Of a stretch of DNA of 35,459 nucleotides, positions 9,094 to 33,477 are shown in pieces; the first letter of the stretch is position 1; every line of letters starts with the position of its first letter. The notes under the pieces are model-generated. The model saw only the letters and a program-made list of their open reading frames with translations. It was not told where the DNA came from and ran no database searches. This stretch comes from Clostridia bacterium (GTDB lineage Bacteria; Bacillota; Clostridia; Oscillospirales; Acutalibacteraceae): assembly GCA_017395425.1 (NCBI GenBank), contig JAFPUM010000030.1, positions 1 to 35,459 on the forward strand. The letters run 5' to 3'. The translations under genes were made by a program, and so were the position numbers.

Positions 9094-9411
9094 AAAACTG
9101 AATGAACGGAAACCGTTGAAGCGGAGATAACGGCGATCAAGCCTTTACAGAGAGCCTGCGCAGCTGAGAATCAGGCAAGAAACCAGTCGTCAAATGGACC
9201 GCCGAGGGCGCAGGGAAACTTGTTGTTTCATCAGAAACTGACGGGGAGTATGCTGCGACGCTGAGACCGGCGTTATGGGTCGGGGATATGATGGTATCCC
9301 GTCAAGCGCACGGCGTACAGCCGTGAATCAAGGTGGCACCGCGAATAGGTTCGTTTTTCACAGTATTCGTCCTTGACAGAAGAGTCTGTACTCTTTTGTC
9401 AGGGTTTTTTT
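9094..9411 (+). promoter_or_regulatory. T-box riboswitch, predicted tRNA-Trp specific
   Basis: A leader RNA that reads the charging state of a tRNA. The conserved T-box core AGGTGGCACCGCG is at 9331-9343. Stem I starts with the AGAGAG element near 9149; its base pairs 9155-9161 with 9208-9214. A TGG (Trp) codon at 9195-9197 lies on the 3' side of stem I where the specifier belongs. The acceptor-binding bulge TGGC would pair with a GCCA tRNA end, which agrees with the G discriminator base of bacterial tRNA-Trp. Uncharged tRNA-Trp would stabilise the antiterminator and allow trpBA transcription. A small hairpin (9105-9117) precedes stem I. The specifier assignment is read by eye. Confidence 0.92.
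9371..9411 (+). terminator. T-box intrinsic terminator
   Basis: Arms 9371-9385 and 9390-9404 form a 15-bp stem with a few G-U pairs and a four-base loop, followed by seven Ts (9405-9411). It is mutually exclusive with the antiterminator built from the T-box core and the downstream bases near 9365-9375. Confidence 0.92.
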
Positions 9412-9461
9412 ATGCTTTTCGCACTGATTTTTCGTTATCAAATAAAGAAAGGAAGATTGTC

Positions 9462-10652
9462 ATGACCAATCCTAACGGACGCTTCGGCATACATGGCGGA
9501 CAGTACATCCCCGAAACGCTGATGAATGCCGTCATCGAATTGGACGAAGCCTATCAGCATTATAAGGAGGATCCCGCGTTCAACCGGGAACTGACCGAAC
9601 TGCTCAACGAATACGCGGGCAGACCGTCGCGGCTGTATTATGCCGCGAAAATGACCGCCGATCTGGGCGGCGCGAAAATCTATCTCAAGCGGGAGGATCT
9701 GAACCATACCGGCGCGCACAAAATCAACAATGTGCTGGGACAGGCGCTGCTTGCCAAAAAGATGGGGAAGACCCGTCTGATTGCCGAAACCGGCGCCGGA
9801 CAGCACGGCGTCGCCACCGCGACAGCCGCCGCCCTGATGGGGATGGAATGCGTGGTGTTCATGGGCAAGGAGGACACCGTCCGTCAGGCGCTCAATGTCT
9901 ACCGGATGCGGCTGCTCGGCGCGGAGGTCATTCCCGTGACCAGCGGCACCGCCACGCTCAAGGACGCTGTCTCCGAAGCCATGCGCGAGTGGACGAACCG
10001 GATTGACGATACCCACTACTGTCTTGGCTCCGTGATGGGACCTCATCCTTTTCCCACGATTGTGCGGGATTTTCAGGCGGTCATCTCGCGGGAAATCAAG
10101 GCGCAGATGCTCGAAAAAGAAGGGCGGCTGCCGGATGCGGTGATTGCCTGTGTCGGAGGCGGTTCCAATGCCATCGGCAGCTTTTACCACTTCATCGGGG
10201 ACAAGGACGTGCGTCTGATCGGCTGTGAAGCCGCGGGACGGGGGGTGGACACCTTTGAAACCGCTGCCACCGTCGCCACGGGTAAAGTTGGGATTTTCCA
10301 CGGTATGAAGTCCTATTTCTGTCAGGACGAATACGGGCAGATCGCTCCGGTCTATTCGATTTCCGCCGGATTGGACTATCCGGGCGTGGGACCCGAACAC
10401 GCCTATCTCCACGACATCGGACGCGCGGAGTATGTTCCTGTCACGGACGAAGAGGCGGTCTGCGCCTTTGAATACCTCGCGCGCACGGAGGGAATCATTC
10501 CCGCCATTGAATCGGCACACGCCGTGGCGCACGCCATGCGGCTGGCGCCGACACTCGGCAAAGACAAGTGTATCGTCATCACGGTTTCCGGGCGCGGCGA
10601 CAAGGATTGTGCCGCAATTGCCCGTTATAGAGGGGAGGATCTTTATGAGTAA
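9462..10652 (+). CDS. trpB: Tryptophan synthase beta chain
   Basis: TrpB joins indole (from TrpA) with L-serine to form tryptophan, using pyridoxal phosphate. The protein has 396 residues. The PLP lysine is K87 in HTGAHKINN, the catalytic Glu is E109 in AETGAGQHG, and the phosphate-binding loop GGGSNA is at 232-237. The sequence is of the TrpB1 type that works with TrpA. ATG 9462 has AAAGGAAG seven bases upstream; the frame is open further back into the T-box core (GTG 9333), but those codons are riboswitch sequence. It overlaps trpA by eight bases, so the two chains are translationally coupled. Confidence 0.97.
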
Positions 10653-11427
10653 TATCGCAAAAGCATTCGAGAGGGGAAAGGCATTTATCCCCTTTATCAC
10701 CTGCGGTGATCCCGATTTGGAGACCACTGCCGCGGTAGTGCGTGCCGCCGTTCTGAACGGCGCGGATCTGATCGAGCTGGGCATTCCGTTTTCAGACCCT
10801 ACCGCCGAAGGCCCTGTGATCCAAGACGCCAGTCTCCGTGCGCTGCGCGGCGGAGTTACCACGGACAAGATATTTGAGCTGGTGCGGGAACTGCGGCGTG
10901 ACGTAACCGTTCCCATGGTGTTTATGACCTATGCCAATGTCGTGTTTTCCTACGGCGCGGAACGGTTTATCAGCACTTGCCGAGACATCGGCATAGACGG
11001 ACTGATACTGCCCGATCTGCCGTTTGAGGAGAAGGAAGAATTCCTGCCGCTGTGTCATCAATATAGCGTGGATTTGATTTCGCTCATTGCGCCTACCTCT
11101 GAAAACCGCATCGCCATGATCGCGCGCGAAGCAGAAGGTTTTCTCTATATTGTTTCCAGTCTCGGCGTGACGGGTATGCGCAGTGAAATCACAACCGACC
11201 TTGCCGCCATTGTGGAAGTGGTTCGGAAGAACACGGACATTCCCTGCGCGATCGGCTTCGGCATTTCCAACCCGGAACAGGCTGCCCATATGGCTGCGCT
11301 TTCGGACGGCGCGATTGTCGGCTCCGCCATTGTCAGGCTGCTGGAGCAATACGGTAAAGACGCGCCCGGATACGTCGGAGCGTATGTCAAACAGATGAAG
11401 GATGCGGTTATTCACGCATCGATCTGA
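10645..11427 (+). CDS. trpA: Tryptophan synthase alpha chain
   Basis: TrpA splits indole-3-glycerol phosphate into indole and glyceraldehyde 3-phosphate; indole then passes to TrpB. The protein has 260 residues in a TIM barrel. The catalytic acid/base E44 is in [10 protein letters not shown]. The position of the second catalytic carboxylate (Asp60 in the Salmonella enzyme) is Glu here (E55, in TAEGP), a conservative change that I believe is common in Firmicutes. Phosphate-binding glycines appear in SSLGVTG and GFGIS. GGGGAGGA sits just before ATG 10645. No other trp gene occurs in the window, so indole-glycerol phosphate must be made from genes elsewhere, or the pair serves indole salvage. 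Confidence 0.97.
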
Positions 11428-21093: not shown

Positions 21094-21122
21094 TTGCCTT
21101 TGCGGACAGCAGGTGGTATAAT
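21094..21122 (+). promoter_or_regulatory. Promoter of pyrB
   Basis: TTGCCT (21094-21099), 17 bases and TATAAT (21117-21122). Transcription should start near 21129, only about 33 bases before the ATG, leaving no room for a PyrR attenuator or long leader. Confidence 0.75.
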
Positions 21123-21161: not shown

Positions 21162-22232
21162 ATGTCCGTGAGAAATCTGATTGATCTGAACCAGCTTTCC
21201 CTGGAAGAACTGGACGAGATCGTGGATATGGCGTGCCGCATCAGCAAACACCCCGAACATTACGCCAGCGCCTGCCGTGACAAGCTCATGGCAACGCTCT
21301 TTTATGAACCGTCCACCCGCACCCAGATGTCCTTTCAGTCCGCCATGCTGCGCGTGGGCGGCAAGATTATCGGCTTCGACAACCCCGGCGGCACGTCGGT
21401 TGCCAAGGGCGAAAGTCTGAAAGACACCGTGACCGTGCTGAGCGGCTATACCGATATTCTCACCATACGCCATCCCCTCGAGGGCGCCGCGATGGCGGCG
21501 TCGCTCTATTCCCATGTGCCGGTCATCAACGCGGGGGACGGCGGTCATCTGCATCCCACCCAGACCCTCACCGACATCGTGACCCTCCGCAACGTCGTGG
21601 GGCGCATGGATCATCTTGTCATCGGTATGTGCGGCGATCTTGCCAACGGTCGCACGGTGCATTCGCTCTGTCGCAGCATGAGCCGCTACGGCGGGAATTC
21701 CTTTGTCTTCATCTCCACCGAAACGCTCGCCATGCCGAAGTACATCAAGGAATATGTCACGGCTATGGGCTGTGAGTACACCGAGGTGCGCACGCTGGAA
21801 GAAGCCATGCCCTATCTTGATGTGCTGTATATGACCCGCATTCAGCGCGAACGCTTCGAAACGCCCGCCGAATATGAGGCACAGAAGGGAGTTTATGTTC
21901 TGGACGCTGCGAAAATGGCGCTTGGCAAGCCCGATCTCTGTGTGCTGCACCCTCTGCCGCGTGTGGACGAAATCGCCTATGAGGTGGATGACGATCCCCG
22001 CGCGTGGTATTTCCGTCAGACCCTCTACGGGATGTACGGTCGCATGGCGCTCATCATCCGCATGATCTCCGAGCATGAAAGCCGCACACCGACCGTGCGC
22101 ACGGCTTCCCCCGGCTTTACCTGTCACAACCCCAAGTGCATCACCCGCTTTGAACCTTATCTTCCGCCGCTCACCGTGGATACCCCCAGCGGCTGCGTCT
22201 GCGCCTACTGTGAGCGCGGACAGGCGGAATGA
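21162..22232 (+). CDS. pyrB: Aspartate carbamoyltransferase with C-terminal PyrI-like zinc domain
   Basis: It makes N-carbamoyl-aspartate from carbamoyl phosphate and aspartate, the committed step of pyrimidine synthesis. Residues 1-305 are a complete catalytic chain: carbamoyl-phosphate loop STRT (51-54), Lys in SVAKGESLKDT (79-89), R103, H131 in HPTQT, R164 and PLPR (264-267). Instead of ending there, the 356-residue protein continues with C321-x4-C326 and C347-x2-C350 around CITRFEP. This is the same spacing style as the zinc-binding C-terminal domain of the regulatory chain PyrI (C-x4-C and C-x2-C). The PyrI nucleotide-binding domain is absent. The start at ATG 21162 has GAGAGG about 13 bases upstream. 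The stop overlaps the next gene by four bases (ATGA). Confidence 0.95.
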   Translation: MSVRNLIDLNQLSLEELDEIVDMACRISKHPEHYASACRDKLMATLFYEPSTRTQMSFQSAMLRVGGKIIGFDNPGGTSVAKGESLKDTVTVLSGYTDILTIRHPLEGAAMAASLYSHVPVINAGDGGHLHPTQTLTDIVTLRNVVGRMDHLVIGMCGDLANGRTVHSLCRSMSRYGGNSFVFISTETLAMPKYIKEYVTAMGCEYTEVRTLEEAMPYLDVLYMTRIQRERFETPAEYEAQKGVYVLDAAKMALGKPDLCVLHPLPRVDEIAYEVDDDPRAWYFRQTLYGMYGRMALIIRMISEHESRTPTVRTASPGFTCHNPKCITRFEPYLPPLTVDTPSGCVCAYCERGQAE

Positions 22233-22834
22233 CGGAAGTCATGACATCTGCGGACAAGCGGCTGATGGTCATAGAAGGCGGTCCGCGTCCCGATGGCATA
22301 TCGGGACAAATGCTGCAATGCTTTCTGCGTGCGCTGACGGACGGCGCGGATACACCGTCCCTTTCATTTTGTCATTATCGCGCTTATGACTGCGGCTTCG
22401 CGCCCTGCACCGACTGCCGTGTCTGCCGCACGCGGGAGGGCTGCGTCTATCACGATATGGATGACTTTTTTGCCGATTTTGCGTCGTCAGACGGTATCAT
22501 CATTGCTTCGCCGATTTATCATATGTCCTACCCGGCGCCGCTCAAGACAATCATGGACAGAATGCAGCGGTATTACAATGCCCGCTTTTATCTGCAAAAA
22601 CGTCCCCCCATTGCCAGGCACCGTCCGGCGGTGCTGCTGCTGTCGGCGGGAAGTCCCGACGAAACGGGGGAGATGGCATTGAAACAATGGGAACGTCTCT
22701 TTACCGTGACGCACTGCACCCTGCTCACCCATTGCGTCGCACGGGGAACCGATCAGATGACCGATGAGACCCTGCCCCAGAAACTTGTCAGGGAATTGCA
22801 ATTAGAAGCCGGTTTTTTTATGAAAAACGTCTAA
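22229..22834 (+). CDS. Flavodoxin-fold FMN reductase/iron-sulfur flavoprotein-like protein
   Basis: A 201-residue protein of the NADPH-dependent FMN reductase/flavodoxin superfamily. A short N-terminal strand with a glycine-rich phosphate loop (EGGPRPDGISGQML, about 16-29) is followed by a Cys cluster C60-x2-C63-x2-C66-x5-C72. The flavin-contacting ASPIYHMSYPAPLKTIMDRM segment comes next (about 93-112). The Cys pattern resembles that of iron-sulfur flavoproteins, so an Fe-S cluster is possible. The ATG overlaps the pyrB stop (ATGA), implying translational coupling. A role connected to pyrimidine synthesis, such as supplying electrons, is speculation. A second in-frame ATG is at 22241. Confidence 0.8.
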   Translation: MTEVMTSADKRLMVIEGGPRPDGISGQMLQCFLRALTDGADTPSLSFCHYRAYDCGFAPCTDCRVCRTREGCVYHDMDDFFADFASSDGIIIASPIYHMSYPAPLKTIMDRMQRYYNARFYLQKRPPIARHRPAVLLLSAGSPDETGEMALKQWERLFTVTHCTLLTHCVARGTDQMTDETLPQKLVRELQLEAGFFMKNV

Positions 22835-29173: not shown

Positions 29174-32100
29174 ATGATGATGGTGGATACCGGAGCAAGA
29201 ACGTGGAAAGCTGTCTGCCGGATACTGCTTCTGGGGGTGCTTCTCTGCCTGTTTTTCCATGCGCCGATGACGACGCGGGCGGCTTCGGCGGAGGTTCATG
29301 CCGGTTCGTCCGGAGACGCGGCTGCTGTCAACCGCAAAGAGGGTGACTGGGTCTATTCGGTCTATGTCGATCGCGACGGAATGTCGTATGCCGCTGTTAC
29401 GGGATTCAACGGTCTTGCACTGGCAATAACGGTTCCCGATACGCTGGGAGGATACCCGGTGCGTTCGATCAGCCGGGAGACCTTTGCGGACAACCGCTAT
29501 CTCACAGAGGTGACGCTTTCGGAGGGCATAGAGGATATCGGTAAATACTGCTTCAAGGGCTGCGTGGGCATCGGACAGGTGAGTTTTCCGTCCACTCTGC
29601 GAAGCGTGGGGGACGGTGCGTTTTACGGCTGCCGGTCTTTGACGGAACTGACGCTCCCGGACGGTTTGAACAAGCTGGGAGACGCCGCCTTTTTTGGGTG
29701 TACGCATCTTCGAAGTGCTGTTCTCTCCGCTTCCCTGCAAAGTATCGGTGACAGCGCTTTTGCCAAATGCGGTCAGCTCGAGCATATAACCTTTGGATCG
29801 GCGCTGACATCGATAGGCAATGAAGCGTTTCAGGATTGTGCGTCACTCCAAAGCGCGGAACTTCCCTCCGAGGTTGCTACCATCGGAAAGGGAGCCTTTG
29901 TCAATTGCGGTGCCATGACGCAGGTGTCTTTGGGAGACACGGTAGAGGAAATACTCAGCGATACCTTCCGGGGGTGCCGCAGCCTGCAAAACGTATCAAA
30001 GGGACGCCGCATACGCACCATTGGTGCTTCGGCATTTGAAGGGTGCGAATCGCTGGATCACATCGAGTTGAACGACAATGCTGAATCCATCGGCGCATTG
30101 GCATTCTATGGGTGTACCGGGCTGAAAAAAGCGACACTGGGCGAAAATATACAGAATATTGGCGCCGGTGCTTTCAGCGGATGCACCTCTCTGAAACAGA
30201 TAGAGGTTTCCGAAAGGAATGAAACCTTCCTTTCGGAAGGCGGAGCGCTGTACAGTGCGGATGGCCGCCGCTTGCTGCTTTGTCCGCAGGGCGCAAAAGA
30301 TAAAATCAAGCTGGCGGACACCGCCGCGGAAATTGACGATTATGCGTTTCGCGGATGCCGCAGTCTGACGAACGTTATATTTTCGCCCGGCGTCACGAAA
30401 ATCGGTATGGGATGCTTTCTTTCCTGTACCGGCATCACGCAATATGCCATCCCTGGCGCCGTGGAAAAAATGGGTTGTCTGTCAGTGGGATATTATTTCC
30501 ATGAAGGTGCGCTGAAAAAGGCGTCCTATGTCAATGTGTTCGGCGAAACCAGCAGCGCGTCAGGCGCCCTGCCTGAAACCGGCAGTGCCTCGGAGCTATA
30601 CTGTGCGGCGCACGATGTTCGTTTCCGTTCTTTTGCGAGTACATTGGTGCTCAATACGGAACACGCGGTGTTGACGGAGGGGGAATCGTTCGAAGTGGTC
30701 TATGGGTTTCTTTCGCCGAGAAAGACCAAGCTCAGCTGGACTTCCTCTGACGAATCGGTGGTAACGGTCAAAAACGGCACCCTTCATGCCTTGAAAACGG
30801 GAAGCGCAGAGGTGACAGTCTCGGCGGAGGGGTTTGACGACAAGGTCATCAAGGTAACGGTTCTGAACCAACCGAAGGAGCGTTCGGCTGAAAAAAAATA
30901 CGATACGCGTCTGATCTACTGTGGAGATTCCGAAGAGTTGAGTTCTTTGCTCGATCAGATTATTGATCCTCTGTTTGCCGTCAACAAATTCTGGTACAGT
31001 ACCAATCCAAAGGCGGTTGTTGTGGGAGATGACGGCAAAGTAACCGCTGTCGGACAAGGAAGTGCCAATATTGTTTGCCGTTTGCCGGACGGCAGCGAGA
31101 GCAATTTCTGGAATACGGTGGCAGATCGTCCTACCGAATTTTTTGTCACACCGCCGACGCAGGAACTGACGGTCGGACAAAAACTGGCGCTGGCGCGTCA
31201 GACCGTTCCGCCCAAATCAACCGATACCGTCACATGGAAAAGCGAAAATGAAGATATTGCATCCGTGGACGACAGAGGCGTGGTTACCGCTGTCGGACAG
31301 GGCAGCTGCGAAATTACCGCTACAACCGCCAGCGGTCTGACCGCCGCCGTAACGGTTGCTTGTGTGATTCCCGCCGAATCACTTTCACTGTCTGTGAATA
31401 CCCGGTCTGTGTATCAGGGCAAGGAATTCAATCTGACGGCGACACTTTCGGAAGGCTCTGAGGAGCGTGTGACATGGCGTTCCACCGATCCCGGCGTTGT
31501 ATCGGTGAATTCAAAAGGAAAGGTCACGGGTGTTTCGTTCGGCACAGCCACTGTCATTGCCGAGACTGCCAGTGGTGTGAGTGATTCCTGCGTGGTGAAT
31601 GTGATGGCACGTGCGGAAAAACTCTCGCTGGATATCAAAAAACTCACGCTTAACGTGGGAGACACTTATCAGCTCCACCCGCTGATTTTCCCTTCCTATT
31701 CGCCTGAAACCACCGAACCCTGCACATGGAATTCCACTGACGAAGCCGTGGTTTCTGTGGATGAAAACGGTACGATCACTGCGCTGCATGCGGGCAGTTG
31801 TATTATCAATTGCAAAACGGGCGGGGATCTGATTTCCAAATGCCGTGTAACCGTGCGTCAACCGGCACAGAGCGTGAAAATTACCGGTGAGAAGGATACG
31901 CTGTATATCGGAGATGTCCTGACGCTTCATCTGCATCTCACCCCTGCGGATACCACAGACAAGGTATCGTGGTCGTCTGACGACGAATCTGTCGCGAAAG
32001 TATCCTCGCAGGGAACCGTCAGAGGAAAATCGGCAGGTAACGCTGTGATTACCGCGACGGTCACGAATGAGGTGAACGGAGAAAAAAGAACGGCGGCATA

Positions 32101-32362
32101 TGACATACAGGTGCTGATGAAAGCGGAATCCATTCAATTGAAACAGCGAAGTCTGTCGATGAACGTCGGAGATACGGATTCATTGCTGTACACGATGACA
32201 CCCGCCGACTGCAATGATACGGTAAGCTGGTCATCAAGTGACGAAAATGTGGCATCGGTGCGGGAGGACGGACTGATTACCGCACTGCACTCCGGAACCT
32301 GCTATGTATCGGTAAAGACTGGGAGCGGATGTTCCGCCAAATGTAAAATTGTGGTTAATTAG
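29174..32362 (+). CDS. Large secreted BspA-like LRR and Big_2 protein
   Basis: A 1062-residue secreted protein. Signal peptide: basic start, hydrophobic 16-30, cleavage near A36. About a dozen BspA-like (LRR_5) leucine-rich repeats fill roughly 75-450, each with a motif like IGDSAFAKCGQL or AFYGCTGL and a conserved F-x-GC turn. From about 490 to the end there are seven bacterial Ig-like Big_2 repeats of about 80 residues, most showing WxSxDExVAxV and a following GxVTAxxxG. No LPxTG, SLH, membrane or choline-binding anchor is visible, so it is either released or held by non-covalent contacts. BspA-like proteins mediate adhesion and Big_2 modules act as stalks; the binding partner is unknown. 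Three tandem ATGs (29174, 29177, 29180) make the exact start uncertain by two codons. Confidence 0.92.
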   Translation: MMMVDTGARTWKAVCRILLLGVLLCLFFHAPMTTRAASAEVHAGSSGDAAAVNRKEGDWVYSVYVDRDGMSYAAVTGFNGLALAITVPDTLGGYPVRSISRETFADNRYLTEVTLSEGIEDIGKYCFKGCVGIGQVSFPSTLRSVGDGAFYGCRSLTELTLPDGLNKLGDAAFFGCTHLRSAVLSASLQSIGDSAFAKCGQLEHITFGSALTSIGNEAFQDCASLQSAELPSEVATIGKGAFVNCGAMTQVSLGDTVEEILSDTFRGCRSLQNVSKGRRIRTIGASAFEGCESLDHIELNDNAESIGALAFYGCTGLKKATLGENIQNIGAGAFSGCTSLKQIEVSERNETFLSEGGALYSADGRRLLLCPQGAKDKIKLADTAAEIDDYAFRGCRSLTNVIFSPGVTKIGMGCFLSCTGITQYAIPGAVEKMGCLSVGYYFHEGALKKASYVNVFGETSSASGALPETGSASELYCAAHDVRFRSFASTLVLNTEHAVLTEGESFEVVYGFLSPRKTKLSWTSSDESVVTVKNGTLHALKTGSAEVTVSAEGFDDKVIKVTVLNQPKERSAEKKYDTRLIYCGDSEELSSLLDQIIDPLFAVNKFWYSTNPKAVVVGDDGKVTAVGQGSANIVCRLPDGSESNFWNTVADRPTEFFVTPPTQELTVGQKLALARQTVPPKSTDTVTWKSENEDIASVDDRGVVTAVGQGSCEITATTASGLTAAVTVACVIPAESLSLSVNTRSVYQGKEFNLTATLSEGSEERVTWRSTDPGVVSVNSKGKVTGVSFGTATVIAETASGVSDSCVVNVMARAEKLSLDIKKLTLNVGDTYQLHPLIFPSYSPETTEPCTWNSTDEAVVSVDENGTITALHAGSCIINCKTGGDLISKCRVTVRQPAQSVKITGEKDTLYIGDVLTLHLHLTPADTTDKVSWSSDDESVAKVSSQGTVRGKSAGNAVITATVTNEVNGEKRTAAYDIQVLMKAESIQLKQRSLSMNVGDTDSLLYTMTPADCNDTVSWSSSDENVASVREDGLITALHSGTCYVSVKTGSGCSAKCKIVVN

Positions 32363-32556: not shown

Positions 32557-33477
32557 ATGAAAGATTATAGAAATATGTCCTGCGCGGCGTGTAAGAATCC
32601 TTTTGATGGGACTTCGGATATCGTGGTATGTCCTGAATGCGGAGCGCCTCACCACAGAGCGTGCTGGCAGGCAGCGGGACAATGTGCCTGCAGCGAACGG
32701 CACGGGGCGGATTATGTCTGGGAGCCGGACAGCATTGTGATTCCTTCCCGCAGTGCGACAGTTCCCACCGATCGCGTCGGCACGGTTTCATCGGAAGAGC
32801 AGATTGTTTGTCCGATGTGCGGCGGCAAAACGAGAAAAGCGCTCAGATACTGTGAGCGCTGCGGCTACTCTCTGGCGCACGATCGGGAAGGTGCCTATGA
32901 CAGTGACGAATTCTCCGGTCTGGAAGGGCTGTTTGATTTTAATCAGGCTGAATCCATCTCGGGCGTGCCGGCAGGTGATATCAAACGGTTCGTTGGGGGC
33001 ATGTGGATATATTATATTCCCCGGTTTCTGCGGATGGCGAGGCAGCGGGGCGCGTTTACCTTCAATTTCACCGCCTTTCTGACCCACGGGCTGTGGTTTA
33101 TTTCCCGTAAAATGTATGTGCGCGGTATTTTTTTGACACTCCTGATGACAGGAACCACCGTGGGACGCATGTTTCTGTCGCAATTCATTGACGGTGCCAC
33201 AGGGCAAAGGAGTCTGCTGCTCACGGCAGCCTATATGCTGCTGGCGGGTATTGAACTGCTGACAATGATTCTGTGCGGCATATTCGGCAACAGAATTTAT
33301 ATGAATTTCTGTACCGCCAAAATCAGGAAAATCAACGCCAGGGCAACCGCCGCACATGCGACTGCTTCGCAGTTCAATGAAGCAATGGAAGAGGAAGGCG
33401 GGGTCGCTGTTTTGCCGGCTCTGTCGATCGGAATTTGTTATCTGATGGTAATTTATCTGCTGCAAAGAGGTTTGTGA
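32557..33477 (+). CDS. Prokaryotic RING-finger, zinc-ribbon and DUF2628 membrane protein
   Basis: A 306-residue protein. Residues 9-45 form a RING-like zinc module: C9-x2-C12, C25-x2-C28, H33-x2-C36, then C43 and C45, as in Prok-RING_1 proteins. A second zinc ribbon has C85/C88 and C99/C102. The C-terminal half matches DUF2628-type membrane domains: an amphipathic entry (WIYYIPRFLRMARQRG) and hydrophobic segments at about 170-205, 222-245 and 280-300. Such proteins are known from Clostridia, but their role is unsettled; the RING could bind a protein partner at the membrane. The start at ATG 32557 has only a distant GGAAGGG (about 13 bases); no in-frame alternative exists before the upstream stop at 32521. 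Confidence 0.85.
   Translation: MKDYRNMSCAACKNPFDGTSDIVVCPECGAPHHRACWQAAGQCACSERHGADYVWEPDSIVIPSRSATVPTDRVGTVSSEEQIVCPMCGGKTRKALRYCERCGYSLAHDREGAYDSDEFSGLEGLFDFNQAESISGVPAGDIKRFVGGMWIYYIPRFLRMARQRGAFTFNFTAFLTHGLWFISRKMYVRGIFLTLLMTGTTVGRMFLSQFIDGATGQRSLLLTAAYMLLAGIELLTMILCGIFGNRIYMNFCTAKIRKINARATAAHATASQFNEAMEEEGGVAVLPALSIGICYLMVIYLLQRGL

Follow-up and report, generated by a model that had tools for sequence, protein, structure and literature searches.

A pyrB-type aspartate carbamoyltransferase that carries a PyrI-type zinc module in cis and lacks the PyrI nucleotide-binding domain

Feedback allostery is usually illustrated with aspartate carbamoyltransferase (ATCase). In the Escherichia coli enzyme, the N-terminal domain of PyrI carries the CTP/ATP site together with the dimer contact through which two catalytic trimers are joined, and the PyrI zinc domain docks on the carbamoyl-phosphate domain of the catalytic chain; whatever else the zinc domain does besides joining PyrI to PyrB is difficult to study separately in this system. 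The activity of the catalytic trimer is reported to change when it binds a zinc fragment of 70 residues taken from E. coli PyrI (Markby, Zhou and Schachman 1991). In the excerpt of PMC4581275 that we consulted, ATCases are divided into dodecamers with regulatory subunits, either separate or fused, and a trimer-only class; its introduction places the Bacillus subtilis-type trimeric enzyme in the latter, and it cites the fused ATCase of Thermotoga maritima (Chen et al. 1998). A fusion of PyrB to the zinc domain alone is absent from the classes in that excerpt and from the excerpt of PMC6245113. No description of such a fusion was found in the literature searched, which is weak evidence of absence since most ATCase papers appeared in journals outside that literature; any Pfam scan would show the domain order, which may stand in database entries that carry no comment.

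Architecture of the protein and identity of its tail

The pyrB gene described here lies in a window of 35,459 nucleotides (the entire stretch of DNA analysed; contig JAFPUM010000030.1 of assembly GCA_017395425.1, a Clostridia bacterium). Its features are as follows.

21094..21122 (+), promoter-like site, 10/12 match with TG before the second hexamer, by consensus match only
21162..22232 (+), pyrB-type ATCase with C-terminal PyrI zinc module, by Pfam, NCBIfam and PDB comparisons
21162..22067 (+), catalytic chain, about residues 1-302 (carbamoyl-phosphate and aspartate domains), by OTCace_N and OTCace
22068..22121 (+), variable linker, about residues 303-320, unconserved in 27 rows and with dN above that of the zinc part
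22122..22211 (+), PyrI-type zinc module, C321 to C350, by PF02748, profile comparison and PDB profile search
22229..22834 (+), FMN_red / flavodoxin-fold protein whose start overlaps the pyrB stop, by PF03358 at 58.6 bits

The frame encodes 356 amino acids plus stop. The promoter-like site is the best of its kind on the gene's strand and would give a leader of roughly 35 nt; no Rfam family reaches its gathering score within the window. The FMN_red neighbour is probably co-transcribed with pyrB. Elsewhere in the window, on the same strand, are a 1062-aa protein with BspA-type leucine-rich repeats and bacterial Ig-like domains (29174-32362), probably a surface protein; a 306-aa protein with a Prok-RING_1 domain (32557-33477); and overlapping frames, as listed, for a PLP enzyme (PALP) and tryptophan synthase alpha (9333-11427), the latter probably with too early a listed start, given that its match begins at residue 80.

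Pfam places OTCace_N at residues 4-143, OTCace at 153-299 and PyrI_C at 319-353 of the window PyrB, and the NCBIfam aspartate carbamoyltransferase model TIGR00670 covers residues 4-300 with 308.4 bits against a cut-off of 236.95. The initial annotation described a complete ATCase with STRT, HPTQT and PLPR motifs; these are intact (residues 51-54, 131-135 and 264-267), and their columns are invariant or nearly so when 27 tailed proteins are aligned. The PDB chains compared (the best 60 of 76) align no further than residue 307. Cysteines occur at positions 25, 38, 157, 170, 204, 260, 321, 326, 345, 347 and 350, so that the C321-x4-C326 and C347-x2-C350 pairs are present as claimed, with C345 as an additional cysteine, and the core that had been called CITRFEP-like reads CITRFEP. 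The chain is not a full PyrB-PyrI fusion of the Thermotoga type: about 18 linker residues separate the catalytic chain from the zinc module.

The family model alone places the tail narrowly. PF02748 (PyrI_C) matches residues 319-353 of the single protein with 23.7 bits against a cut-off of 23.4, the whole-genome search scores the same tail at 27.2 bits, and the NCBIfam PyrI model gives a weak partial match at 319-352 (12.9 bits, E 0.064). Because the single-protein score is marginal, we used profiles to judge the tail. When a profile of 18 tails was searched against the PDB, the three best matches were all PyrI chains (best E 4.4e-4, 2yww), and the 19 matches with E up to 10 comprised 12 PyrI chains and seven others (four VLDL-receptor fragments, LRP8, ZFAT and Nab2); E. 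coli PyrI did not appear until E about 0.2. Compared profile to profile with 26 full-length PyrIs of the same bacterial family, the tails gave a probability of 97.5% and E 8.3e-12, and the alignment covers the PyrI zinc half alone (PyrI columns 96-141). By these comparisons the tail is confirmed as a homologue of the PyrI zinc domain, and the initial reading of a PyrB with a PyrI-type zinc module and no N-domain is supported, although it understated both the prevalence and the conservation of the form.

Spread of the tailed form and its relation to separate PyrI

We searched the whole window assembly (2.36 Mb, 98.67% complete) for regulatory-chain domains. The PyrI N-domain (PF01948), which marks an allosteric class B enzyme or a PyrI regulatory chain, has zero matches at E <= 10 in the chain or anywhere else in the genome; the same search is positive in 7 of 14 control genomes. 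The window tail is the only PF02748 match above cut-off, and weak second matches, at 13.7 bits and less, were discarded. A separate full-length pyrI, which the initial annotation had named as a finding that would overturn its reading, is thus not found in this assembly. The other such finding, a tail dissimilar to the PyrI zinc domain, is contradicted by the profile comparisons. Nucleotide control might still be exerted by a separate protein of PyrI type that has diverged beyond the reach of the family model, and the occurrence of both forms in one assembly (G717, below) could be taken in its favor; against it stand the empty PF01948 search and the low scores of the remaining PF02748 matches, and we regard it as very improbable. 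The other transcarbamylase in the genome, on another contig, was considered as a second ATCase and ruled out, being of the ornithine type. With one DHO_dh-family gene and one OMPdecase-family gene also present, the window PyrB is likely to be the genome's only ATCase, in a working de novo pathway.

Tailed ATCases are, as judged by sequence matches, common in related gut clostridia. Across 300 genomes of the window's family, PyrI_C is above cut-off in 251 and the PyrI N-domain in 157, so at least 94 of the 300 have PyrI_C without the N-domain over these cut-offs. Among 30 family genomes picked for closer comparison (3 of the window's own genus, 23 with intermediate scores and 4 with long open frames), the PyrB match extends to query residue 351-354 in 28. 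A 20-row profile of the PyrB end plus tail matched the joint without a stop in 93 of 197 genomes of the order, representing 48 of 111 genera, at E <= 1e-28, a strict limit that may miss others. In a phylum-wide draw of 398 genomes, 62 match at E <= 1e-10, mostly over PyrB alone, and the joint is matched without a stop in 4, every one in the window's order. The order of a tailed Bacteroidales record has a PyrB match in 183 of 198 genomes; among the matches listed, the tail is reached in at least 2 of those 183, the record's own genome included. Among named loci, taken as the best 80 of 595 candidates, 68 have the tail, including Ruminococcus flavefaciens, Pseudoflavonifractor, Merdimmobilis, Negativibacillus and 'Clostridium sp. 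D33t1'.

A proposed survey for separate pyrI genes in genomes with the tailed form was carried out on 80 genomes. The PyrI N-domain is present in 1 of 61 tailed genomes and in 19 of 19 pyrB-pyrI controls, the latter figure being expected because the controls were selected on strong zinc-domain matches. With 60 of 61 tailed genomes lacking the N-domain, tail and PyrI appear to be mutually exclusive across genomes. The exception, the metagenome assembly G717, has a tailed pyrB in a pyr operon (locus L160, Candidatus Faecousia) plus a pyrE-pyrB-pyrI set; its pyrB-pyrI pair (L196) is on a different contig of 3,501 bp, next to frames that resemble transposase by eye, and both a true second copy and a binning error fit this arrangement.

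Origins, conservation and selection

To place the tailed form phylogenetically, we built a quick tree from the catalytic domains of 96 tailed and 68 untailed proteins (164 in all), on which 4 label changes are needed, 3 of them forced by starred branches; shuffled labels need 52.3 changes on average, and 0 of 500 shuffles needed as few as 4. A careful tree of 62 hand-chosen rows also requires 4 changes, with support of 100/99 for the main clade. A single origin of all tailed forms is rejected (p-AU 0.0073), as are one clade of the main clade and group B (p-AU 0.022) and one clade of the three minor groups (p-AU 0.020), whereas group B and the Bacteroidales forms as one clade are compatible with the data (p-AU 0.21) and group B with Negativibacillus is borderline (p-AU 0.060); all these p-AU values are optimistic, the groups having been named after the tree was seen. 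From these trees, two or more transitions are likely, and there were probably three.

Counts of label changes do not separate gain from loss, and gene order suggests the direction. In two genomes, G076 and G232, the genes read from the frames as pyrD-pyrF-pyrE are followed by the tailed pyrB, which occupies the pyrBI position of the pyr operon; G187 and G261, of the same genus as G076, have pyrD-pyrF-pyrE-pyrB-pyrI, and in G150, a congener of G232, a pyrB-pyrI pair sits at the end of a contig. The main clade, the window included, stands apart from the pyr operon: pyrD, pyrE, pyrF or pyrK is matched in 2 of 41 main-clade loci of at least 11 kb (pyrK alone in both) versus 8 of 11 untailed loci.

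Two further observations concern the operon-borne forms. Four loci titled Bacteroidales, Paludibacteraceae or Tidjanibacter (L161, L165, L167 and L173) have a tailed pyrB that the tree places among the PyrBs of clostridia and that has pyrK/pyrD/pyrF matches close by, resembling those of clostridial operons; these are either transfers or mis-binned contigs. The tailed-pyrB operons L190 and L160 have a pyrE-like gene of another type than that of L188, L189 and L192, and pyrE and pyrB may have been exchanged together.

Nine tail columns (C321, N323, C326, T328, E331, Y333, P335, C347 and C350) are invariant in 27 of 27 tailed proteins, which were themselves recognised by their cysteines, and the linker ahead of the module is unconserved in the same rows. 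No long form without cysteines occurs in the sets read, where every complete cysteine-less protein has at most 321 residues. The 87 distinct main-clade proteins keep N in 86, T or S in 86, E in 83, Y or F before the last cysteine in 87 and D or E after it in 86. Four conserved cysteines in apparent anaerobes, some with a flavin-fold gene alongside, could point to a metal or redox sensor in which zinc loss or cysteine oxidation switches the ATCase in place of nucleotide control; but the zinc of E. coli PyrI is structural, the data hold no sign of sensing, and we think this improbable.

Selection was estimated within the window's own genus from 4 sequences (6 pairs) with dS near saturation. For the zinc module, dN is 0.027-0.274 and dS is 0.96-2.4 in the 4 pairs where it could be computed (2 could not), giving dN/dS of about 0.03-0.13 in those 4 pairs. 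The linker dN exceeds the zinc-module dN in 6 of 6 pairs, and the catalytic part has a dN below that of the module in 5 of 6. The low family-model score might be expected of a decaying, functionless leftover of an old pyrB-pyrI fusion; conservation over many genera, dN well below dS where computable and the lack of a long cysteine-less form among the proteins read all speak against decay, which we consider the least probable of the explanations weighed here.

The pattern of retained residues can be compared with that of free PyrI, whose zinc half in the 26 family PyrIs keeps C, NP, C, I, E, F, L, D, YR, C, Y, C and E. Main-clade tails share with it the ligands, N, E, the aromatic residue and the acidic residue after the last cysteine, and show no conservation at L, D and YR; in most of them the hairpin has about four residues fewer (cysteine pairs 20 apart in 71 of 87 proteins). 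Viewed with the residue contacts within E. coli ATCase, this pattern suggests that the PyrB-holding face of the zinc module has been kept and that parts serving the absent domain have been released. The shortened hairpin, together with a YLP-like motif found in 86 of 87 main-clade proteins, is unseen in the family's PyrIs and could instead mean that the tail, rather than clamping its own trimer, links several trimers in a larger assembly or serves to dock another protein, such as the flavin-fold neighbour or dihydroorotase. An FMN_red gene lies directly 3' of tailed pyrB in 23 of 79 main-clade loci versus 0 of 67 untailed loci, which would favor a partner; on the other hand, the remaining 56 main-clade loci and all 8 other tailed loci are without this neighbour, and the ligands and PyrI-shared residues are conserved. 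We judge a bridging or partner-docking tail unlikely, though the strongest of the alternatives. A general partnership of tailed PyrB and FMN_red was rejected on the 23 of 79 count.

Proposed function and comparison with known ATCases

The mechanism that we favor, and regard as probable on the sequence comparisons above, is a PyrB that has gained the C-terminal zinc module of PyrI in cis, with loss of the nucleotide-binding N-domain, and that would form a trimer with self-docked modules, no regulatory dimers and no CTP/ATP control. Points that weigh against it are the marginal Pfam score of the single protein, two minor-group tails that score slightly below the PyrI_C cut-off (20.9 and 23.1 bits), the match of the tail profile to E. 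coli PyrI at no better than E about 0.2, the presence of both forms in G717, and a zinc module that evolves faster than the catalytic part in 5 of 6 own-genus pairs. In this mechanism, the four cysteines would hold one structural zinc, and the module would dock on the carbamoyl-phosphate domain of its own chain or its own trimer, at the site used by the PyrI zinc domain; the profile comparisons support the homology of the tail and do not bear on docking. Because the domain that bears the CTP/ATP site and the dimer contact is absent here, a trimer without heterotropic control is expected, with a mass of ~118 kDa, three zinc modules and no nucleotide feedback, although a nucleotide effect through some other site is possible. 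Since the module appears to be under selection, it should serve the trimer itself, and it is probably kept for trimer stability or a tuned aspartate affinity.

More tentatively, and with somewhat greater doubt than belief, we suggest that the same truncation, in which the CTP/ATP domain disappeared and the zinc module was retained in cis, arose at least twice, probably three to four times; that the tail holds a constitutively high-affinity, R-like trimer; and that this form is the prevailing ATCase in parts of a large gut-bacterial order. A natural enzyme with the zinc domain and without the nucleotide domain separates the two functions that are joined in the textbook enzyme, and the genus of G076, G187 and G261, which has members with and without the change, makes a direct comparison possible. 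For the ATCase of many gut clostridia, CTP feedback should not be assumed in models.

Relative to E. coli-type ATCase (pyrB plus pyrI, c6r6), the window protein shares a homologous catalytic chain and the four-cysteine zinc domain, but it lacks the PyrI N-domain and has the module in cis, so that no CTP/ATP site or regulatory dimer is expected. The reported complex of the E. coli catalytic trimer with the 70-residue zinc fragment is the direct precedent and is alike in having the zinc module and no nucleotide-binding domain; that complex is a laboratory product assembled in trans, whereas the window protein is natural and covalent. With the unregulated trimeric ATCase of the B. subtilis type it would share a catalytic trimer insensitive to effectors, a property predicted for the window form, yet its PyrB is of the PyrI-associated sequence type and the B. 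subtilis class is not known to have a zinc tail. The fused PyrB-PyrI of T. maritima likewise has both parts in one chain, PyrB first; there, however, the whole PyrI is fused and the enzyme is allosteric, as the title of Chen et al. (1998) states, while the window form has the zinc module without the N-domain.
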